Of a stretch of 64,000 bases of DNA, positions 2,661 to 60,320 are shown in pieces. Source of the stretch: Thioalkalivibrio sp. XN279 (GTDB taxonomy: Bacteria > Pseudomonadota > Gammaproteobacteria > Steroidobacterales > XN24). The stretch spans positions 62,001 to 126,000 of the forward strand of contig NZ_JAANBD010000025.1 of assembly GCF_011089885.1 (NCBI RefSeq). Reading direction: 5' to 3'. Each line of letters opens with the position of its first letter. The first letter of the stretch is position 1. Position numbers and translations under genes: made by a program. The notes beneath the pieces are model-generated. The model did not search any database, had not been told where the DNA came from, and worked only from the letters and a program-made list of their open reading frames with translations.

Positions 2661-5509
2661 ATGAGCAAATCCCTTCAGGAACGCTACGCTACAACTCCTC
2701 TTTCCGGTGGCAATGCGCCCTATGTCGAGGCGCTCTACGAGCAGTACCTGGAGGATCCCGATTCCGTGGATCCCGGGCTGCGTCGCTGGTTCGACGGCAT
2801 CGCCGACGGTGGCACAGAAATCCCGCGCGGGCCGATCGAGCAGGCCTTTGCCGCCCGCGCGCTTAAGCCCCGCGCGGCGGCGAGCAGCGGCGTGTCGGAC
2901 CAGGTGCTGGACAAGCAGGCCGCCGTGCTGCGGCTCATCGAGGCGTACCGGCTGCGCGGGCACCGCATGGCGAAGCTGGATCCACTGGGGCTGGTGGAGC
3001 CGCAGCCGTTGCCCGAGCTCGACCCGGCGTTTCATGGCCTGGGCGATGCGGACAACGACACCGTGTTTGCCACGGCCGGCTTCGGCGGTGCTGAGCGGCT
3101 CAAGTTCCGTGACATCCGGGCCCGACTGGCACAGGTGTACACCGGCACCATCGCCGCCGAACTCGGCCACATCACCGACACCGAGGAACGGCTCTGGCTG
3201 CAACGGCGCTTCGAGGCGGCGGCGGCCGGCGGGCGACTTGAGGCGGCCGAGCGTCGCCACGTGCTGGAGCGGTTGACCGGCGCCGAGGGTATCGAGCGCT
3301 ACCTGCATACCCGTTATGTCGGGCAGAAGCGCTTCTCGCTGGAGGGCGGCGAGAGCATGATCCCGCTGCTCGGCGACGTCATCCAGCAGGCGGGCGCGCG
3401 CGGCATGGAAGAGGTCGTCATCGGCATGGCCCATCGCGGCCGGTTGAACGTGCTGGTCAATGTGCTGGGCAAGCCGCCGAAGGACCTGTTCTCCGAGTTC
3501 GAGGGCGCCTACGATCCGATGCAGCGCCGTTCCGGCGACGTCAAATATCATCTCGGCTTCTCCTCGGACATCAGCACGCCGGGCGGCAATATCCACGTCG
3601 CGCTGTCGTTCAATCCTTCGCACCTCGAAATCGTCAACCCGGTCGTCACTGGTTCGGTGCGGGCCCGCCAGGACCGGCGTGGCGATCCCATCGGTGCCAC
3701 CGTGCTGCCGATCCTGATCCACGGCGACGCGGCCTTCGCCGGGCAGGGCGTGGTGATGGAAACCCTGCAGATGTCGCAGACCCGCGGCTTTGCCACCGGC
3801 GGGACGCTGCACGTCATCTGCAACAACCAGGTCGGCTTCACCACCAGCCACCCGCAGGACGCCCGCTCCACGCCGTATTGCAGTGACGTGGCGAAGATGA
3901 TCGAGGCGCCGATTTTCCACGTGAACGGCGACGACCCGGACGCGGTGGGGCTGATCGGCCGGCTGGCCTTCGATTACCGCATGAAGTACCGCAAGGACGT
4001 GGTGATCGACCTGGTGTGTTATCGCCGCCACGGCCACAACGAGGCTGACGAGCCGGCGGCCACGCAGCCGACCATGTACAGCGTGGTGCGCAATCATCCG
4101 ACCACCCGCAAGCTCTACGCCGACCGCCTCGCCGCAGACGGGGTGATCAAGGAAGAAGAGGCCCAGCAGATGGTGGACGCGTACCGCCAGGGCCTGGACG
4201 AGGGGCGGGTGGTGTCGGCCTCGGTGGGCTTCGTCGGTAACAAGTTCACGGTCGACTGGACGCGCTTCGACGAGGTCAATTTCAGCCAGCCGGTGCGTAC
4301 CCGGATCACGCCGCAGCAGGTCAGGGACTTTGCCACGGCGATCACGCATGTGCCGGAGGGGCACAAGCTGCATCCGCGCGTGGAACGCATCATGGCCGAT
4401 CGCGGGCGCATGGCCGCGGGCGAGATTCCCATGGACTGGGGTTTTGCCGAGACCATGGCCTATGCCAGCCTGGTCACGGAAGGCTACGACGTGCGCATCA
4501 CCGGCCAGGACAGCGGTCGTGGCACCTTTTTCCATCGCCACGCCGTGCTGCACGACCAGGCGGGCCGCGACCCGTGGATCCCGCTCAAGCACGTGACCGA
4601 TGACCAGAAGAGCTTCACGGTCATCGACTCGCTGCTGTCCGAGGAGGCCGTGCTGGGTTTCGAGTACGGCTACGCCACCACCAACCCGGACACGCTGGTC
4701 ATCTGGGAAGCCCAGTTCGGCGACTTCGTCAACGGGGCCCAGGTGGTCATCGACCAGTTCATCAGCTCGGGCGAAACGAAGTGGGGACGTTACTGCGGCC
4801 TGATGCTGTTCTTGCCGCACGGCTACGAGGGGCAGGGCCCGGAGCATTCCTCGGCGCGACTCGAACGCTTCCTGCAGCTGTGCGCCGAGCACAACATGTC
4901 GGTCGTGGTGCCGTCCAACCCGGCGCAGATGTTCCATCTCATCCGCCGCCAGATGGTCCGGCCTTTCCGCAAGCCCACGGTGGTCATGACGCCGAAGAGC
5001 CTGCTGCGCCATAAGCTCTCGGTCTCGCCGCTGGATACGCTCTCCGAGGGCCGCTTCCTGCGCATTATCCCGGAGGTCGACGACATCGCCCCCGAGGCGG
5101 TCTCGCGCCTGGTGCTGTGCAGCGGCAAGGTCTACTACGACCTGCTCGAGGCGCGCCGCGAACAGGGGATCGACGACGTCGCCATCGTGCGCGTCGAGCA
5201 GCTCTATCCTTTCCCGATCCGCCGCTATGCAGCGCTCATCGAGGAATTCCCTGCGCTCGAGGACGTCGTGTGGTGCCAGGAAGAGCCGCAGAACCAGGGC
5301 GCCTGGTACCAGATCCGGCACCGCCTGCAGGAGCCGCTGCATGCAAAGCACCAGCTGTTCTATGCCGGGCGCAAGGGCGCAGCGGCCCCGGCGGCGGGTT
5401 ACTACGGCTTGCACCAGCAACAACAACAGGCGCTCGTCGAGACGGCCCTCAGCGGCAGCCGTACGGCGCGCCAGAAAGCTACCAGCAATAAAGCGACCAG
5501 GAAGAAAGC

Positions 5510-22960: not shown

Positions 22961-23635
22961 ATGAGCGCGGCGAGCGAGGAGGCCGTGCGCGCCGAGGCGG
23001 CGCTGCGGATCACCGAGATATTCCTTTCGGTGCAGGGCGAGGCGAGCAGCGTCGGCTGGCCGACGGTGTTCGTGCGCCTGACCGGTTGTCCCCTGCGCTG
23101 CACTTATTGCGACACGGCCTACGCATTCCACGGCGGCGAGCGGCTGTCACTGGACGAGATACTGGCCCGTGTCGCCGGCCACGGCGTGCGCCACGTCTGC
23201 GTCACCGGCGGTGAGCCGCTGGCGCAGCGCGCCTGCCTCGACCTGGTGACGCGCCTGTGCGACGCCGGATACGCCGTGTCGGTGGAAACCAGCGGCGCGC
23301 TGGATATCGGCGGCCTGGATCCGCGTGCGCAGCGCGTGATGGACGTCAAGACGCCGGCCTCGGGAGAATCCGCCCGCAACCTTCCCACCAACCTGGACGC
23401 GTTGCGCCGCCAGGACTGCGCCAAGTTCGTCGTCTGCGACCGCGCCGATTACGATTGGGCGCGGCAGTTCGTCAGTGAACACGGCCTGGCGACGCGCTGC
23501 GAGGTGCTGTTCTCGCCGTGCTGGGGCCGGGTGGCGCCGGCAGCGCTGGCGGAGTGGATCCTTGCGGACCGGCTCCCGGTCCGTTTCCAGTTGCAGCTGC
23601 ACAAGGTCCTGTGGGGCGATGTCCCGGGACGGTGA
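22961..23635 (+). CDS. queE: 7-carboxy-7-deazaguanine synthase QueE
   Basis: QueE is a radical-SAM enzyme that contracts the ring of 6-carboxytetrahydropterin to 7-carboxy-7-deazaguanine in preQ0/queuosine synthesis. The 224-residue protein carries CPLRCTYC with Cys43, Cys47 and Cys50 ligating the 4Fe-4S cluster, then [11 protein letters not shown] as the SAM-binding region. Length and start [13 protein letters not shown] are typical of the gammaproteobacterial form. It overlaps the queC start by 17 bases, so translation is coupled. Confidence 0.95.
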
Positions 23636-53796: not shown

Positions 53797-55185
53797 ATGA
53801 GCGCGCAGGAATATCGCATCGAGAAAGACAGCATGGGGGAGCTGAAGGTGCCGGCAGACGCGCTCTGGGGTGCGCAGACCCAGCGCGCCGTGCAGAACTT
53901 CCCGGTCAGCGGGCGTGCCATGCCTCCGGGGTTCATCGCGGCGGTCGGGCTGGTGAAGTGGGCGGCGGCCGGGGCGAACGAGGAACTCGGGCTGCTTGAG
54001 CCCGCAGTGGCGGCTGCGATCCGCGAGGCCGCGGCGGCGGTCGCTGCAGGCCGGCACGACGACCAGTTTCCGGTGGACGTGTTCCAGACCGGGTCCGGCA
54101 CCAGCACCAACATGAATGCGAACGAGGTCATCGCCACCCTGGCCAGCCGGATCGCGGGCGCAACGGTGCACCCGAACGACCACGTCAACATGGGCCAGAG
54201 CAGCAATGACGTCATTCCCACCGCGATCCACGTCAGCGCGGCCCTTGCGGTCGAAGGCGAGTTGCTGCCCGCGCTCGACCACCTCGCCGGCGTCATCGAG
54301 AAGAAGGCGGTCGCCTGCCGCGACATCGTCAAGACCGGCCGCACGCACCTGATGGATGCCATGCCGGTGCGCCTGGACCAGGAACTCGGCGCCTGGGCGA
54401 CCCAGGTGCGCTCCGGCATCGCCCGGGTGCGGGGCACCCTGCCGCGGCTATGCCGCCTGGCACAGGGCGGGACAGCAGTCGGCACCGGCATCAACGCTCA
54501 CCCCGACTTCGGCGCGCGGTTCGCCGCGCAGCTGGCCGGCCGCACCGGTGTCGAATTCCGGCCGAGCGAGGATTACTTCGAGAGCCTGAGCTGCCAGGAC
54601 ACCGCGGTCGAGCTTTCGGGCCAGCTGAAGACCGTGGCGGTGAGCCTGATGAAGATCGCCAACGACCTGCGCTGGATGAACAGCGGCCCGCTCGCGGGGC
54701 TCGGCGAGATCGCGCTCCCGGCGCTGCAGCCCGGTTCCAGCATCATGCCGGGCAAGGTCAATCCCGTGATCCCCGAGGCTACGGCGATGGTGGCTGCCCA
54801 GGTGATCGGTAACGATGCGGCCATCACGGTGGCAGGCCAGTCCGGCAGTTTCCAGCTCAACGTGATGCTGCCCCTGGTCGCCGATCGGCTGCTCGACAGC
54901 CTGCGGGTGCTGGCTGCCGTGGCGCGCGTGCTGGCGGACCAGGCGATCGCCGGGTTCACCGTGAACGAGGACAACCTGCGCGCGGCACTGGAGCGCAACC
55001 CGATCCTGGTGACGGCGCTCAACCCCGTGATCGGCTACGAGCTCGGTGCGGCGACGGCGAAGAAGGCGTACGCCCAAGGACGGCCGATTCGCGAGGTCGC
55101 GCTGGAGATGACGGACCTCGGCGAGGACGAGCTGGCGCGCCTGCTGGATCCGGCCGGGCTGACGGAGGGCGGCATCCGCAAGTGA
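53797..55185 (+). CDS. fumC: Fumarase class II
   Basis: FumC hydrates fumarate to malate. It is an iron-free enzyme of 462 residues with the superfamily signature GSSIMPGKVNPVIPEA, QTGSGTSTNMNANEV and NDHVNMGQSSNDVIPTA. As fumC is often induced under oxidative or iron-limited conditions, its presence without fumA here does not tell its regulation. GAGGAAGCGC precedes the ATG. The upstream 160-base gap is AT-rich in its last 60 bases. It overlaps the NUDIX start by 4 bases. Confidence 0.97.
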   Translation: MSAQEYRIEKDSMGELKVPADALWGAQTQRAVQNFPVSGRAMPPGFIAAVGLVKWAAAGANEELGLLEPAVAAAIREAAAAVAAGRHDDQFPVDVFQTGSGTSTNMNANEVIATLASRIAGATVHPNDHVNMGQSSNDVIPTAIHVSAALAVEGELLPALDHLAGVIEKKAVACRDIVKTGRTHLMDAMPVRLDQELGAWATQVRSGIARVRGTLPRLCRLAQGGTAVGTGINAHPDFGARFAAQLAGRTGVEFRPSEDYFESLSCQDTAVELSGQLKTVAVSLMKIANDLRWMNSGPLAGLGEIALPALQPGSSIMPGKVNPVIPEATAMVAAQVIGNDAAITVAGQSGSFQLNVMLPLVADRLLDSLRVLAAVARVLADQAIAGFTVNEDNLRAALERNPILVTALNPVIGYELGAATAKKAYAQGRPIREVALEMTDLGEDELARLLDPAGLTEGGIRK

Positions 55186-55802
55186 GGCAGCTGATCGCGC
55201 GGTGCTTTGCCGGCACCAGCCCGGCGCCCCCGGAGCGTTACCGCATTCCCGGGGTGCCCGGCGACCTGCCGCCGGCGCTGGAGCGATTGCGGCCTGCGCG
55301 CCTCGTCCCGGCGGCAGTGCTGGTGCCGCTCATCGAGCGGCCGCAGGGGCTGACGGTGCTGTTGACCGTGCGGGCGCCCGGCTTGCGGCACCACGCCGGG
55401 CAGGTGAGCTTCCCCGGCGGCAGGCTGGACCCCACGGACACGGGTCCCCTGCAGGCCGCTTTGCGCGAGGCTCGCGAGGAAGTAGGACTGTCCGGGGAGC
55501 TGGTCGAGGTGGCCGGCTACCTGCCCAACTACATGACCATCACCGGCTTCTCCGTCACGCCGGTGGTGGGTTTCGTCGCAGGCGAGTTCCAGCCGCACCC
55601 GGACACCACGGAGGTCAGCGAGGCTTTCGAGGTGCCGCTCGAGGTGCTGCTCGATCCCGGCAGCATGCAGCTCCGTCACAAGCGTTTCATGGGCGTGAAG
55701 CTGCCGTTCTTCGAGATGCCTTGGGGAGAGCACCTCATCTGGGGCGCGACCGCGGCCATGCTGGTGAATTTCCGCGACATCCTGCGGGGGTACGGCGAAT
55801 GA
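55182..55802 (+). CDS. NUDIX hydrolase, CoA pyrophosphatase-type
   Basis: The 206-residue product starts at GTG, overlapping the fumC stop (GTGA). It has the NUDIX box in FPGGRLDPTDTGPLQAALREAREEVGL and the CoA-specific segment ahead of it (LLTVRAPGLRHHAGQVSFPGG), typical of NudL/PCD1 CoA diphosphatases that hydrolyse CoA and its derivatives. It is translationally coupled to fumC and mazG, a set of metabolite-housekeeping genes. Confidence 0.88.
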   Translation: MRQLIARCFAGTSPAPPERYRIPGVPGDLPPALERLRPARLVPAAVLVPLIERPQGLTVLLTVRAPGLRHHAGQVSFPGGRLDPTDTGPLQAALREAREEVGLSGELVEVAGYLPNYMTITGFSVTPVVGFVAGEFQPHPDTTEVSEAFEVPLEVLLDPGSMQLRHKRFMGVKLPFFEMPWGEHLIWGATAAMLVNFRDILRGYGE

Positions 55803-56587
55803 AGCAGATGGAAGAACTGCTCGAGGTCATGGCCCGCCTGCGCGATCCCGCGCACGGGTGTCCCTGGGACGTGGCGCAGGATTTCGCCAGCATCGCGCCC
55901 TACACCATCGAGGAAGCGTACGAGGTCGCCGACGCCATCGAGCGCAACGACCTGGTGGCGTTGCGCGAGGAATTGGGCGACCTGCTGTTCCAGGTGGTGT
56001 TCCATGCGCGCATGGCGGAGGAGCAGGGCGCCTTCGACTTCGCCCGCGTCGCGGGCGAGCTCGCCGAAAAGATGCGCCGCCGCCATCCGCATGTGTTCGG
56101 TGAAGCCGAGGTGGCCGACGCCGCCGCACAGACCGAGGCCTGGGAGGCCCACAAGGCCCGTGAGCGCGCCGCCAGGCGCCAGGGCGCGCTGGACGACGTC
56201 CCGGTGAACCTGCCGGCGCTGGCGCGCGCTCAGAAGCTGGGGCGGCGGGCGGCCCGGGTGGGATTCGACTGGCCGCATGCCCCGGCGGTGCTCGAGAAGC
56301 TCGACGAAGAGCGGACCGAGCTGGCCGTGGCCATCGCGCAACGCCGCGACGCACCGGAAGCCGTGGAGGAGGAATTCGGCGACCTGCTGTTCACCATGGT
56401 CAACCTGGCCCGGCACCTCGACGTTGACGCCGAAAGCGCGCTGCGCCGTGCGGCGTTGAAATTCGAGCGGCGCTTTCGCCGCATAGAGGAGCGGCTCGCA
56501 GCCGACGGGAAGACGCCGGAGGAGGTCGACGCCGCCACGCTGGAACGCCTCTGGAACGAGGTCAAGGAGTCGGAAGCTGGGCGCTGA
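55799..56587 (+). CDS. mazG: Nucleoside triphosphate pyrophosphohydrolase MazG
   Basis: MazG removes pyrophosphate from NTPs and thereby clears the nucleotide pool; E. coli MazG also affects (p)ppGpp levels. The 262-residue protein has two MazG domains: CPWDVAQDF with EEAYEVADAIE and EELGDLLFQVVFHA in the first, and LDEERTELAVAI with EEEFGDLLFTMVNLA in the second. It overlaps the NUDIX gene by 4 bases. Upstream in-frame sequence is a shadow. Confidence 0.95.
   Translation: MKQMEELLEVMARLRDPAHGCPWDVAQDFASIAPYTIEEAYEVADAIERNDLVALREELGDLLFQVVFHARMAEEQGAFDFARVAGELAEKMRRRHPHVFGEAEVADAAAQTEAWEAHKARERAARRQGALDDVPVNLPALARAQKLGRRAARVGFDWPHAPAVLEKLDEERTELAVAIAQRRDAPEAVEEEFGDLLFTMVNLARHLDVDAESALRRAALKFERRFRRIEERLAADGKTPEEVDAATLERLWNEVKESEAGR
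56565..56579 (+). promoter_or_regulatory. Ribosome-binding site and CTG start of hrpA
   Basis: AGGAG at 56565-56569 is followed after 7 bases by CTG at 56577-56579, inside the end of mazG. No ATG, GTG or TTG occurs in the hrpA frame between the stop at 56484-56486 and a GTG at 56694, which lies in the Walker A region. The CTG is therefore the best-supported start. Confidence 0.45.
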
Positions 56588-59500
56588 GACCCCCGCGCCG
56601 GACCTGGCGCCGCGCCTGGAATTCCCAGCCGAGCTGCCGGTCTCGGTCGAACGCGAGCGGATCGCCGCAGCGCTCGAGGAAAGCCAGGTCGTCGTGGTGT
56701 GCGGCGCCACAGGCTCCGGCAAGACCACCCAGTTGCCGAAGATCTGCCTGCTTGCGGGTCGCGGCCGCGACGGCATGATCGGTCATACCCAGCCGCGTCG
56801 CATCGCGGCGCGCGCCGTGGCGGCGCGGGTCGCCACGGAGCTCGGGCCGGCTGGAGACCGGCTGGTGGGCTGGAAGGTGCGGTTCAACGATCGTACCGGG
56901 CCGGACTGTCGTCTCAAGCTCATGACCGACGGGATCCTGCTGGCCGAGATACGCAGCGACCCGCTGCTGCGGCGCTACGACACCATCATCATCGACGAGG
57001 CCCACGAGCGCAGCCTCAACATCGACTTCCTGCTCGGCTACCTGAAGCAGCTGTTGCCGCGTCGGCCGGAGCTCAAGCTCATCGTCACCTCCGCCACCAT
57101 CGAGCCGGCGCGCTTCGCCGCGCACTTCGACGGCGCACCGGTGATCGAGGTGGGCGGCACTTCGTACCCCGTGGAGGTGCGTTATCGTCCGCCTGCGGAC
57201 CCTGATGAGGCCCGACTGCAGGACGGCGTCCTGGCGGCGGTGGACGAACTGCGCGGCCCGGCAGAGTCCGGCGGCCTGCCCGGCGATATCCTGGTATTCC
57301 TGCCCGGGGAGCGGGAGATTCGCGAGACCGCGGAAGCACTGCGCAAGCACCACCCGGCCAACACCGAGGTGCTGCCGTTGTACGGCAGGCTCTCGGCGGG
57401 CGAACAGGACAGGATTTTTCAGCCGCACGGACGGCGCCGGATCGTGCTCGCCACCAACGTCGCGGAGACCTCGCTCACCGTGCCGGGTATTCGCTGCGTG
57501 GTCGACTCCGGGCTGGCCCGGATCAGTCGCTACAGCTATCGCTCCAAGATCCAGCGCCTGCAGGTGGAGCCGATCTCCCAGGCCAGCGCGTGGCAGCGTC
57601 GCGGCCGGTGCGGACGCGAAGCTGCAGGCGTCTGCATCCGCCTCTACGAGGAGAGCGATCACGACGCGCGGCCGGAGTACACCGATCCCGAGATCCGGCG
57701 CACCAACCTCGCCAGCGTCATCCTGCAGATGGAGACGCTCGGGCTGGGCGAGATCGGCGAGTTCCCGTTCATGGATCCGCCGGACCGGCGTTTCATCAAC
57801 GACGGTTACCGGTTGCTGCGCGAGCTGGGCGCCGTGGACGAGCGCCGCGGCGTCACCGCATTGGGACGCCGCCTGGCGCGGCTGCCGGTCGATCCGCGTC
57901 TCGGGCGCATGCTGCTCGAGGCCGGTCGGCTGGGCTGCGTCGCGGAGCTGCTGGTCATCGCCGCCGGCCTGTCCATCCAGGACCCGCGCGAGCGTCCGGC
58001 GGAGACCGCGGCGCAGGCGGACGAGAAGCACGCCTTGTTCCGCGACAAGCAGTCGGACTTTCTCGGCCTGTTGCGGCTGTGGGAGGCCTGGCAGGAGCGG
58101 CGGCGGCACGACTCCGGCAGCGCGCAGCGGCGCTGGGCCCGTGAGCATTTCCTGTCTTTCATGCGCCTGCGGGAGTGGCAGGACGTGCACCGCCAGTTGC
58201 TCGAGCTCACCGCGCAGATGGGCATGCGCCGCAACGAGGTGGCGGCCGATTACGCCGCCGTGCATCGGGCCATTCTCAGCGGCATGCTGTCGCACATCGG
58301 CCGGCTCGACGAGAAGGGGGAGTACCAGGGCGCGCGCAATTTGCGCTTCCGCCTGTTTCCGGACTCCGCCCTGGCGGCAAAGCCGCCCCGCTGGGTGGTG
58401 GTGGCTGCGCTGGTGGAGACCGCCCGCGTCTGGGGGCGCATGGCCGCGGCGGTCGAACCGGCATGGATCGAGGCTGCGGGGGGTGACCTGGTGCGGCGCA
58501 GCTGGTCGGACCCGCACTGGCAGGAGTCGCGCGGTTTCGTCGCGGCGCGCGCGCAGGCGGCGCTGTTCGGGCTGGTGCTGGCGACCGACCGGCGGGTGGA
58601 TTTCGCGCGCGTGGACCGGGCCGGGGCGCGGGAAGTGTTCCTGCGTGACGCCCTCGCGGCCGGGCGCCTGCGCACCAGGGGCGCTTTCCTGGCGCACAAC
58701 CGCGCCCTGGTGCGGACGGTACAGGCGCTCGAGGCGAAGCTGCGCCGGCGCGAGCTGCTGGCAGGCGATGCGGCCATCGCGGCGTTCTACGCGGCCCGTG
58801 TTCCTGAAGAGATCTGCTCAACCGCGGCGTTCGAGCGCTGGCGCAAGCGTGCCGAGCGTGATGCGCCGCGGCTCTTGTACATGTCCCTGGACGACCTGCT
58901 GAGCGGCGCGCCGCTGCCGCGCGGGGAGGACTTCCCCGACGTGCTGGAGTGCGACGGCAACCGTTTGCCGCTGCGCTATCGCTTCGATCCCGCCGCCGAG
59001 GACGACGGCGTGACCGTGCAGGTGCCGCGTCATCTCCTGCCGCTGCTCAGTGAAGACCGGCTGGACTGGCTGGTGCCGGGCTGGCTGGAAGAGAAAGTCG
59101 TCGCCATGCTGCGGGCCTTGCCCAAGTCGGCCCGGCGCCGCATCGTCCCGATCCCGGATCATGCGCGTGCCTGCCTCGCCATGCTGCAGCCAGGGCAGGG
59201 CCTGCTGCGTGCAGCGCTGGCCGAGGCTTTGCGCCGCGACGCCGGCCTCGAGGTGCCGCCCGAGACCTGGAGCGGCCTCGAGTTCGAGCCCTGGCTGCGT
59301 TTTCGCGTCGAGGTGACCGACGGCGACGGCAAAGTACTGGGTGCGTCGCGCGACCTCGACGGACTGAAGCGGGCCTTCGCGCCGGCGGCCGGGGCTGTGA
59401 CCGAGGGAGCCGTCGCGGAGTGGTCCGGCCAGGGCCTGCGCCGCTGGAGCTGCGGGCTGATGCCGCAGCAAGTCGAAGTGCGACGCGGCCGCACCGTGCA

Positions 59501-60320
59501 GCGCCTGTTCCCCGCGCTGCAGGATGACGGCGGCGCGGTGTCCTGCCGGTTATTCCCGACTGCCGCGGAGGCCGCGGAGAACCATCGCCACGGCGTGTTG
59601 CGCCTGTTGCTGCTGGCGTTGCCCCAGCAGCAGCGTGCATTGCTGCAGCGAGCGCGTGGCGAGCACGCCCTGCTGCTGCGCGGACGCGGCCTGGCGCAGG
59701 CCCGGGACCTGGCCGAGGACCTCGTGACTGCGGCTTTCGCGCGCGTATTCCTTGGTGCCGATGCCGAGCTGCCACGGGACGAAGCCGGATTGCAGGCGTG
59801 TCTTGACGCCGGCCGGGCCCGGATCATGCCGGACGCCGAGCAGCTGCTGGCTACGGCGGTGCAGGTGCTGGAGCTCCACGACGAATGCAGGTCGAGGCTG
59901 GAACGCGGCCTGGTCGGCCCGGGGGCGGCCGAGGCGGCCGCAGACATCGACGGGCAGCTGCGCGAGCTCGTGTACCCCGGTTTCCTGGCGAGTACGCCGC
60001 CGGAGCGACTCGACGACCTGCCGCGCTACCTGAAGGCCGTCCTGGCCCGCATGGAAAGGCTGGCGCTGGGCAAGGGCGAAGCACGCCAGGTGCTGGAGCT
60101 GCGGCCCCATCGCGAGCGGCTGGCGGAAAGCGCCGCGGCACGCTGGAGCAATCCGGCCGCGGCCGCTGCGTTCAGGCAGTACCGCTGGATGCTGGAAGAG
60201 TATCGGGTGCAGCTGTTCGCCCAGGCGCTGGGCGTGCGCGAGAAAGTTTCGCACGCCCGGCTCGAGGCCCAGTGGCAGAAGTGTCGGGAGCTGCAGGCCG
60301 GGTTGCGGCCCGCGAATTGA
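56577..60320 (+). CDS. hrpA: ATP-dependent RNA helicase HrpA
   Basis: HrpA is a DEAH-box RNA helicase that processes mRNA and helps rescue collided ribosomes. The frame has Walker A GATGSGKTTQLPK, DEAH in IIDEAHERSLNIDFLL, SAT, motifs V-VI in ATNVAETSLTVPGI and QRRGRCGREA, then the HA2/OB-fold region and a long C-terminal domain (DUF3418-like) specific to HrpA. From CTG 56577 it is 1247 residues, versus about 1300 in E. coli; from the GTG at 56694 it would be 1208 and lose the motif-Q region LPVSVERERIAAALEESQVVVV, which aligns with E. coli. A sequencing error or an unusual start are alternatives. It follows mazG closely and the next gene by 55 bases. Confidence 0.88.
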   Translation: MGAETPAPDLAPRLEFPAELPVSVERERIAAALEESQVVVVCGATGSGKTTQLPKICLLAGRGRDGMIGHTQPRRIAARAVAARVATELGPAGDRLVGWKVRFNDRTGPDCRLKLMTDGILLAEIRSDPLLRRYDTIIIDEAHERSLNIDFLLGYLKQLLPRRPELKLIVTSATIEPARFAAHFDGAPVIEVGGTSYPVEVRYRPPADPDEARLQDGVLAAVDELRGPAESGGLPGDILVFLPGEREIRETAEALRKHHPANTEVLPLYGRLSAGEQDRIFQPHGRRRIVLATNVAETSLTVPGIRCVVDSGLARISRYSYRSKIQRLQVEPISQASAWQRRGRCGREAAGVCIRLYEESDHDARPEYTDPEIRRTNLASVILQMETLGLGEIGEFPFMDPPDRRFINDGYRLLRELGAVDERRGVTALGRRLARLPVDPRLGRMLLEAGRLGCVAELLVIAAGLSIQDPRERPAETAAQADEKHALFRDKQSDFLGLLRLWEAWQERRRHDSGSAQRRWAREHFLSFMRLREWQDVHRQLLELTAQMGMRRNEVAADYAAVHRAILSGMLSHIGRLDEKGEYQGARNLRFRLFPDSALAAKPPRWVVVAALVETARVWGRMAAAVEPAWIEAAGGDLVRRSWSDPHWQESRGFVAARAQAALFGLVLATDRRVDFARVDRAGAREVFLRDALAAGRLRTRGAFLAHNRALVRTVQALEAKLRRRELLAGDAAIAAFYAARVPEEICSTAAFERWRKRAERDAPRLLYMSLDDLLSGAPLPRGEDFPDVLECDGNRLPLRYRFDPAAEDDGVTVQVPRHLLPLLSEDRLDWLVPGWLEEKVVAMLRALPKSARRRIVPIPDHARACLAMLQPGQGLLRAALAEALRRDAGLEVPPETWSGLEFEPWLRFRVEVTDGDGKVLGASRDLDGLKRAFAPAAGAVTEGAVAEWSGQGLRRWSCGLMPQQVEVRRGRTVQRLFPALQDDGGAVSCRLFPTAAEAAENHRHGVLRLLLLALPQQQRALLQRARGEHALLLRGRGLAQARDLAEDLVTAAFARVFLGADAELPRDEAGLQACLDAGRARIMPDAEQLLATAVQVLELHDECRSRLERGLVGPGAAEAAADIDGQLRELVYPGFLASTPPERLDDLPRYLKAVLARMERLALGKGEARQVLELRPHRERLAESAAARWSNPAAAAAFRQYRWMLEEYRVQLFAQALGVREKVSHARLEAQWQKCRELQAGLRPAN

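Follow-up and report, generated by a model that had tools for sequence, protein, structure and literature searches.

A conserved CTG at the end of mazG as the likely start codon of an HrpA-type RNA helicase gene

Where does translation of hrpA begin in Thioalkalivibrio sp. XN279? In the 64,000 nucleotides that we analysed (hereafter the window, numbered from its first letter), the reading frame of this helicase gene is open from 56487 to 60320 on the + strand, and an earlier note, made from the letters alone, had stated that it offers no standard start codon before a GTG at 56694. We find the same: between 56487 and 56700 the only in-frame ATG, GTG or TTG codons are two consecutive GTGs, at 56694 and 56697 (Table 1). 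The note had pointed instead to a CTG at 56577, with a Shine-Dalgarno (SD) sequence seven bases upstream and a place within the mazG stop region, and this arrangement is present as described: AAGGAG is separated from the CTG by 7 nt, and hrpA, if read from the CTG, would overlap mazG by 11 nt, counted from the CTG through the end of the mazG TGA. Read in the mazG frame, the CTG is made up of the last two bases of a GCT (Ala) codon and the G that follows. The upstream gene, mazG, starts with an ATG at 55799. Among the five co-oriented genes of this region (fumC, which we take to be such from its sequence, and nudix, mazG, hrpA and degV, assigned by profile and domain searches), the longest SD match is that of hrpA. 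From 53797 to 56587 the genes form a chain of overlaps, fumC-nudix through GTGA and nudix-mazG through ATGA, which runs on into hrpA.

Table 1. Features of the mazG-hrpA junction, in window coordinates.
Feature	Position	Strand	Basis
TAG, last in-frame stop 5' of the hrpA frame	56484..56486	+	sequence
mazG, nucleoside triphosphate pyrophosphohydrolase, adjoining hrpA on its 5' side	55799..56587	+	NCBIfam PRK09562 and mazG over cut-off; Pfam MazG
AAGGAG, SD-like; Lys-Glu codons of mazG; common to all three species of the genus	56564..56569	+	
CTG, putative hrpA start; kept in all three species of the genus	56577..56579	+	
TGA, mazG stop, within hrpA	56585..56587	+	
hrpA, DEAH-box RNA helicase; 1247 aa with the CTG as start	56577..60320	+	TIGR01967, phmmer
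GTG GTG, earliest canonical in-frame starts, immediately 5' of Walker A; rejected as start	56694..56699	+	

The identity of the protein is clear, and it bears on where its N-terminus should lie. The NCBIfam equivalog model for HrpA (TIGR01967) matches with 1507.2 bits against a curated cut-off of 722.75, and the other HrpA model, PRK11131, gives 1287 bits, under its cut-off of 1400. The Pfam domains DEAD, Helicase_C, HA2, OB and DUF3418 follow one another in the order expected in HrpA, and phmmer aligns the protein with PDB chains 9ggr and 9gft, both named HrpA. The note's claim that HrpA homology is encoded ahead of the GTG proved right, as TIGR01967 aligns from residue 40 of the stop-to-stop frame onward (about 56604), some 30 codons before the GTG. 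The long N-terminal segment of the solved HrpA chains is absent: residue 11 of the query aligns to residue 68 of 9ggr. We collected 110 HrpA loci; a Walker A match satisfied our filter in 106 of them (all but L021, L030, L034 and L087). L033 contains L002, so that one locus is present twice, and L025 is cut by a contig edge. In 17 of the 106 the most upstream ATG, GTG or TTG (16 ATG, 1 GTG) lies 40-50 codons before Walker A, so that membership of the family does not depend on a long N-terminal segment, and the CTG, which would give a short N-terminus of 42 codons ahead of Walker A, stands where the start of a short form is expected. The short form is probably functional, to judge from these 17 loci and from the alignment with 9ggr, which begins only at residue 68.

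The junction was then compared within the GTDB family of the window genome, for which we had seven genomes, three of them in the same genus (the window genome, G001 and G002; a contig scan of the relatives kept 80 of 187). The HrpA of G001 is 80% and that of G002 74% identical to that of the window. The G001 locus is also found letter for letter within a record of Thioalkalivibrio sp. XN8 (L033), which NCBI places in the Ectothiorhodospiraceae. Upstream of hrpA, G001 has AAGGAGG and G002 AAGGAG, with gaps of 6 and 7 nt to a CTG that lies 42 and 41 codons before Walker A, respectively, and in both the mazG stop overlaps hrpA. An alignment of this junction in related genomes had been proposed in the earlier note as a check; it finds the CTG, the SD and the mazG overlap in both other species, and thus in all three of the genus genomes compared.

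An open frame that overlaps the end of mazG could also be read without any start of its own, through +1 ribosomal frameshifting near the mazG stop, which would yield a MazG-HrpA fusion. Relative to mazG, the hrpA frame is indeed shifted by +1, and in each of the three species no stop interrupts it across the end of mazG; the upstream SD-like site could stimulate a shift. However, the last sense codon of mazG is CGC or CGT, which by eye allows only poor +1 re-pairing, a GGG codon has become GAG in G002, and the spacing of the SD suits initiation at the CTG. In the frameshift site of prfB the distance between SD and stop differs from that seen here, where the end of AAGGAG and the TGA are 15 nt apart. 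We therefore regard a frameshifted fusion as very unlikely.

A separate start for hrpA could be some other near-cognate codon. Numbering codons back from Walker A, the window has three NTG or ATN codons between the upstream stop and -29, all of them CTG (-42, -33 and -29), and the same three are found in G001, where an in-frame TGA at -47 stands five codons 5' of the CTG at -42. In both genomes an SD match longer than 3 nt is present at the CTG at -42 only; the CTGs at -33 and -29 are in frame, but their SD matches reach 3 nt at best. G002 has one further candidate deep in mazG, a TTG at -68 with a 5-nt SD (GGAGG, gap 6), which is missing in the window and in G001, and in G001 a stop lies between that position and hrpA. 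We give these codons a slim chance of being the real start, since the CTG at 56577 is the sole NTG or ATN codon with a strong SD that is common to all three species. The note had named, as an outcome that would speak against the CTG, relatives with a normal start codon at another position; neither G001 nor G002 has a shared one, the TTG of G002 being the only codon of this kind ahead of the GTGs by Walker A.

How far upstream translation must begin can be read from the pattern of substitutions. Over the 29 codons before Walker A, pN/pS in the hrpA frame is 0.16, 0.27 and 0.24 for the three species pairs, whereas in the other two frames of the same stretch it is 1.63-5.80. Because these last 29 codons are constrained as protein, initiation should take place no further 3' than about -29. 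Between the window and G001 no constraint is seen over the 12 codons from -41 to -29 (pN 0.32, pS 0.26), nor over the hrpA frame further upstream inside mazG (pN 0.36, pS 0.17). A start at GTG 56694 or 56697, with HrpA beginning at Walker A, is on this evidence rejected and now highly improbable. These are the earliest canonical codons, and automatic annotation might pick them, but the 29 codons ahead of them are under selection as protein, the TIGR01967 match reaches about 30 codons further 5', and the position of the GTGs varies among the species (-3/-2, -5/-3 and -5/-4), with SD-like matches of just 3-4 nt. That a sequencing or assembly error masks an ATG or GTG at the junction might be considered for a single-genome draft in 29 contigs, but we give it next to no credence and reject it, since the bases of the CTG and SD are the same in three separate genomes.

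Does the junction carry a signature of selection beyond that on MazG? The GCT that contains most of the CTG is kept in both relatives; of 49 other sites that encode Ala throughout the three species and are GCT in the window, 1 shows the same (the codon at the CTG itself is excluded from the count, as are an out-of-frame mazG extension and three small doubtful ORFs). The codons AAG, GAG, GAA and GCT are here identical in the three species, and such full codon identity is found in 5 of the 158 runs of four consecutive amino-acid-identical codons in mazG, a number that may include or overlap this very group. Plain nucleotide conservation is unremarkable, with 22 of 260 five-codon mazG windows equalling or exceeding the junction segment in a test on an 18-nt scale. 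Conservation of the SD by itself says little, because the SD is also two MazG codons, and AAG and GAG are common and well kept (both relatives retain 215 of 258 AAG and 320 of 553 GAG codons). These synonymous-site tests are post hoc, draw on three species and each give a p value in the range of a few per cent. When minimum-energy folds from the three species were compared by eye, no clear shared RNA structure around the CTG was apparent.

We also asked how often such an arrangement would arise by chance in the window. With a gap of 5-9 nt, an SD match of 6 nt or longer precedes 8 of 2914 CTGs on both strands, and 1 of the 40 sites of the form CTGnnnnnTGA. The full arrangement (AAGGAG, 7 nt, CTG, 5 nt, TGA) occurs a single time, at the mazG/hrpA junction. 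A scan for homology upstream of the first canonical start flagged 11 of 37 window genes, hrpA included, a count that is not a base rate, since at least some of the 11 are other-frame overlaps with a neighbour; queC, for example, has an ATG at 23618, and the upstream stretch of degV overlaps hrpA.

Relatives outside the genus suggest how the junction arose. In four genomes of the same family (G003-G006) mazG also lies directly 5' of hrpA, but 292-324 nt separate its stop from Walker A; HrpA is longer at its N-terminus there, and ATG or GTG codons are candidates for its start. Within the genus the distance from the mazG stop to Walker A is 114-117 nt. Comparison of these loci indicates that the genus probably lost about 175-210 bp between mazG and hrpA, including the old start and some 50-65 codons; after such a deletion the end of mazG would have supplied both the SD and the CTG. 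A further genome from the same taxonomic order, G061, has a mazG-hrpA overlap with an ATG start. In G003 the long-form hrpA (L004) has no ATG near the expected start, and its best candidate is a GTG at -109, behind GGAGG and inside mazG.

Among the 106 loci, five lack an ATG, GTG or TTG at least 22 codons before Walker A: that of the window, the G001 locus in its two copies (L002 and L033), and L091 and L106. The last two are near-identical loci from gammaproteobacterial MAGs in which no ATG, GTG or TTG is found from an in-frame TGA at -64 to five codons before Walker A (locus position 3094). Their candidates are a CTG at -48 and an ATC at -37, both with weak SD, and the gene before hrpA resembles, by its sequence, a peptidyl-prolyl isomerase. 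It is possible that these loci represent a second, independent non-canonical hrpA start.

From the anatomy of the junction, its conservation in three species and the coding constraint upstream of Walker A, we infer initiation at the CTG, coupling to mazG and low output. The likeliest reading, and one in which we have considerable confidence, is thus that HrpA is initiated at CTG 56577, coupled to mazG and weakly translated. The earlier note had offered a CTG-initiated, translationally coupled helicase conditionally; with CTG, SD and overlap conserved, this has become the best-supported reading. One mark of a translationally coupled gene pair is that start and stop overlap or lie a few bases apart, and mazG and hrpA overlap by those 11 nt, so that from the overlap alone coupling is probable. 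In mechanistic terms, AAGGAG would position a 30S subunit, or a ribosome just ending mazG, with the CTG in the P site, and normal fMet-tRNA would read the CTG, giving an HrpA with a short N-terminus. Ribosomes that translate mazG would cross this site and terminate 8 bases beyond it, which is why hrpA is probably coupled to mazG. An unusual initiator tRNA that might ease the reading of CTG was not found: the window genome (G000), G001 and G002 have the arm GGG-CTCATAA-CCC with anticodon CAT, and the exact initiator tRNA pattern was found in five of the seven family genomes. For E. coli the mechanism of coupling is debated and, in the accessible text of one study, reported not to be mainly re-initiation (PMC7538156), so that mazG-hrpA coupling may work by unfolding.

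Against a CTG start stand the alternative TTG at -68 of G002 with its GGAGG, the small number of species (three only) and the reported weakness of the codon. According to excerpts of PMC11497404, CUG makes up 0.024% of bacterial initiation codons and has 0.86% of the efficiency of AUG. In the available portion of a comparison of 36 genome triplets, 2 of 61,358 ancestral AUG starts had changed to CUG, and CUG-started genes were called few (PMC5622118); in mycobacteria CTG was unenriched even behind an SD, as far as the part of PMC4633059 available goes. Given how weak CTG is as a start, one would expect little HrpA to be made, and its amount to depend on how accurately start codons are selected. 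The note had likewise proposed that output may respond to initiation fidelity, a hypothesis that extends general knowledge of non-canonical start codons to this gene. A single base change, costing one residue of the variable MazG tail, would create an ATG, GTG or TTG. No lineage of the three carries it, an absence that fits selection for low output without proving it. One may speculate that the CTG is retained on purpose and places a ribosome-rescue helicase under both a fidelity-sensing start codon and coupling to mazG, so that HrpA would rise as IF3 activity or initiation accuracy falls and hrpA would be a second fidelity-sensing gene beside infC, an idea that we consider rather unlikely.

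If the CTG is the start, gene finders restricted to ATG, GTG and TTG, which miss CTG starts, would find only the GTGs by the nucleotide-binding motif and truncate HrpA. A large helicase whose CTG is retained throughout a genus would offer a natural test of why bacteria avoid this codon: can a strong SD together with coupling rescue a CTG, and does a weak start serve to keep a factor of translation quality control scarce? In E. coli, HrpA is reported to rescue stalled ribosomes, as summarised in the accessible part of a review (PMC13159725). Our literature searches, which mostly did not extend to subscription papers, found no CTG-started hrpA among the matches listed, and within the same bounds a text search of 5.39 million papers found none with both 'hrpA' and 'mazG' as whole words.

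How, then, does this junction compare with known systems? What we describe is very probably a conserved instance of a rare but known type of start. Like the few CUG-initiated bacterial genes, hrpA would combine a near-cognate NTG codon with a strong SD and presumed reading by fMet-tRNA; unlike the others, it has kept its CTG in three species at 74-80% identity, encodes a large conserved helicase and overlaps mazG. Compared with the GTGA and ATGA overlaps of the same gene run, its overlap with mazG is longer (11 nt) and carries a CTG start. A further parallel is infC, the gene for IF3, which is autoregulated through the discrimination exerted by IF3. In all seven family genomes the open frame of infC (L128-L134) begins with 18 codons free of ATG, GTG and TTG; the likely start, behind GGAGG, is ATC in six, including all three of the genus, and ATT in one (L129, from G005). 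It is a useful control, since the same reasoning that we applied to hrpA recovers a classic non-canonical start. Both are translation machinery genes with a putative non-canonical start behind a strong SD; they differ in the codon, ATC or ATT in infC and CTG in hrpA, and an autoregulatory loop is claimed for infC alone.
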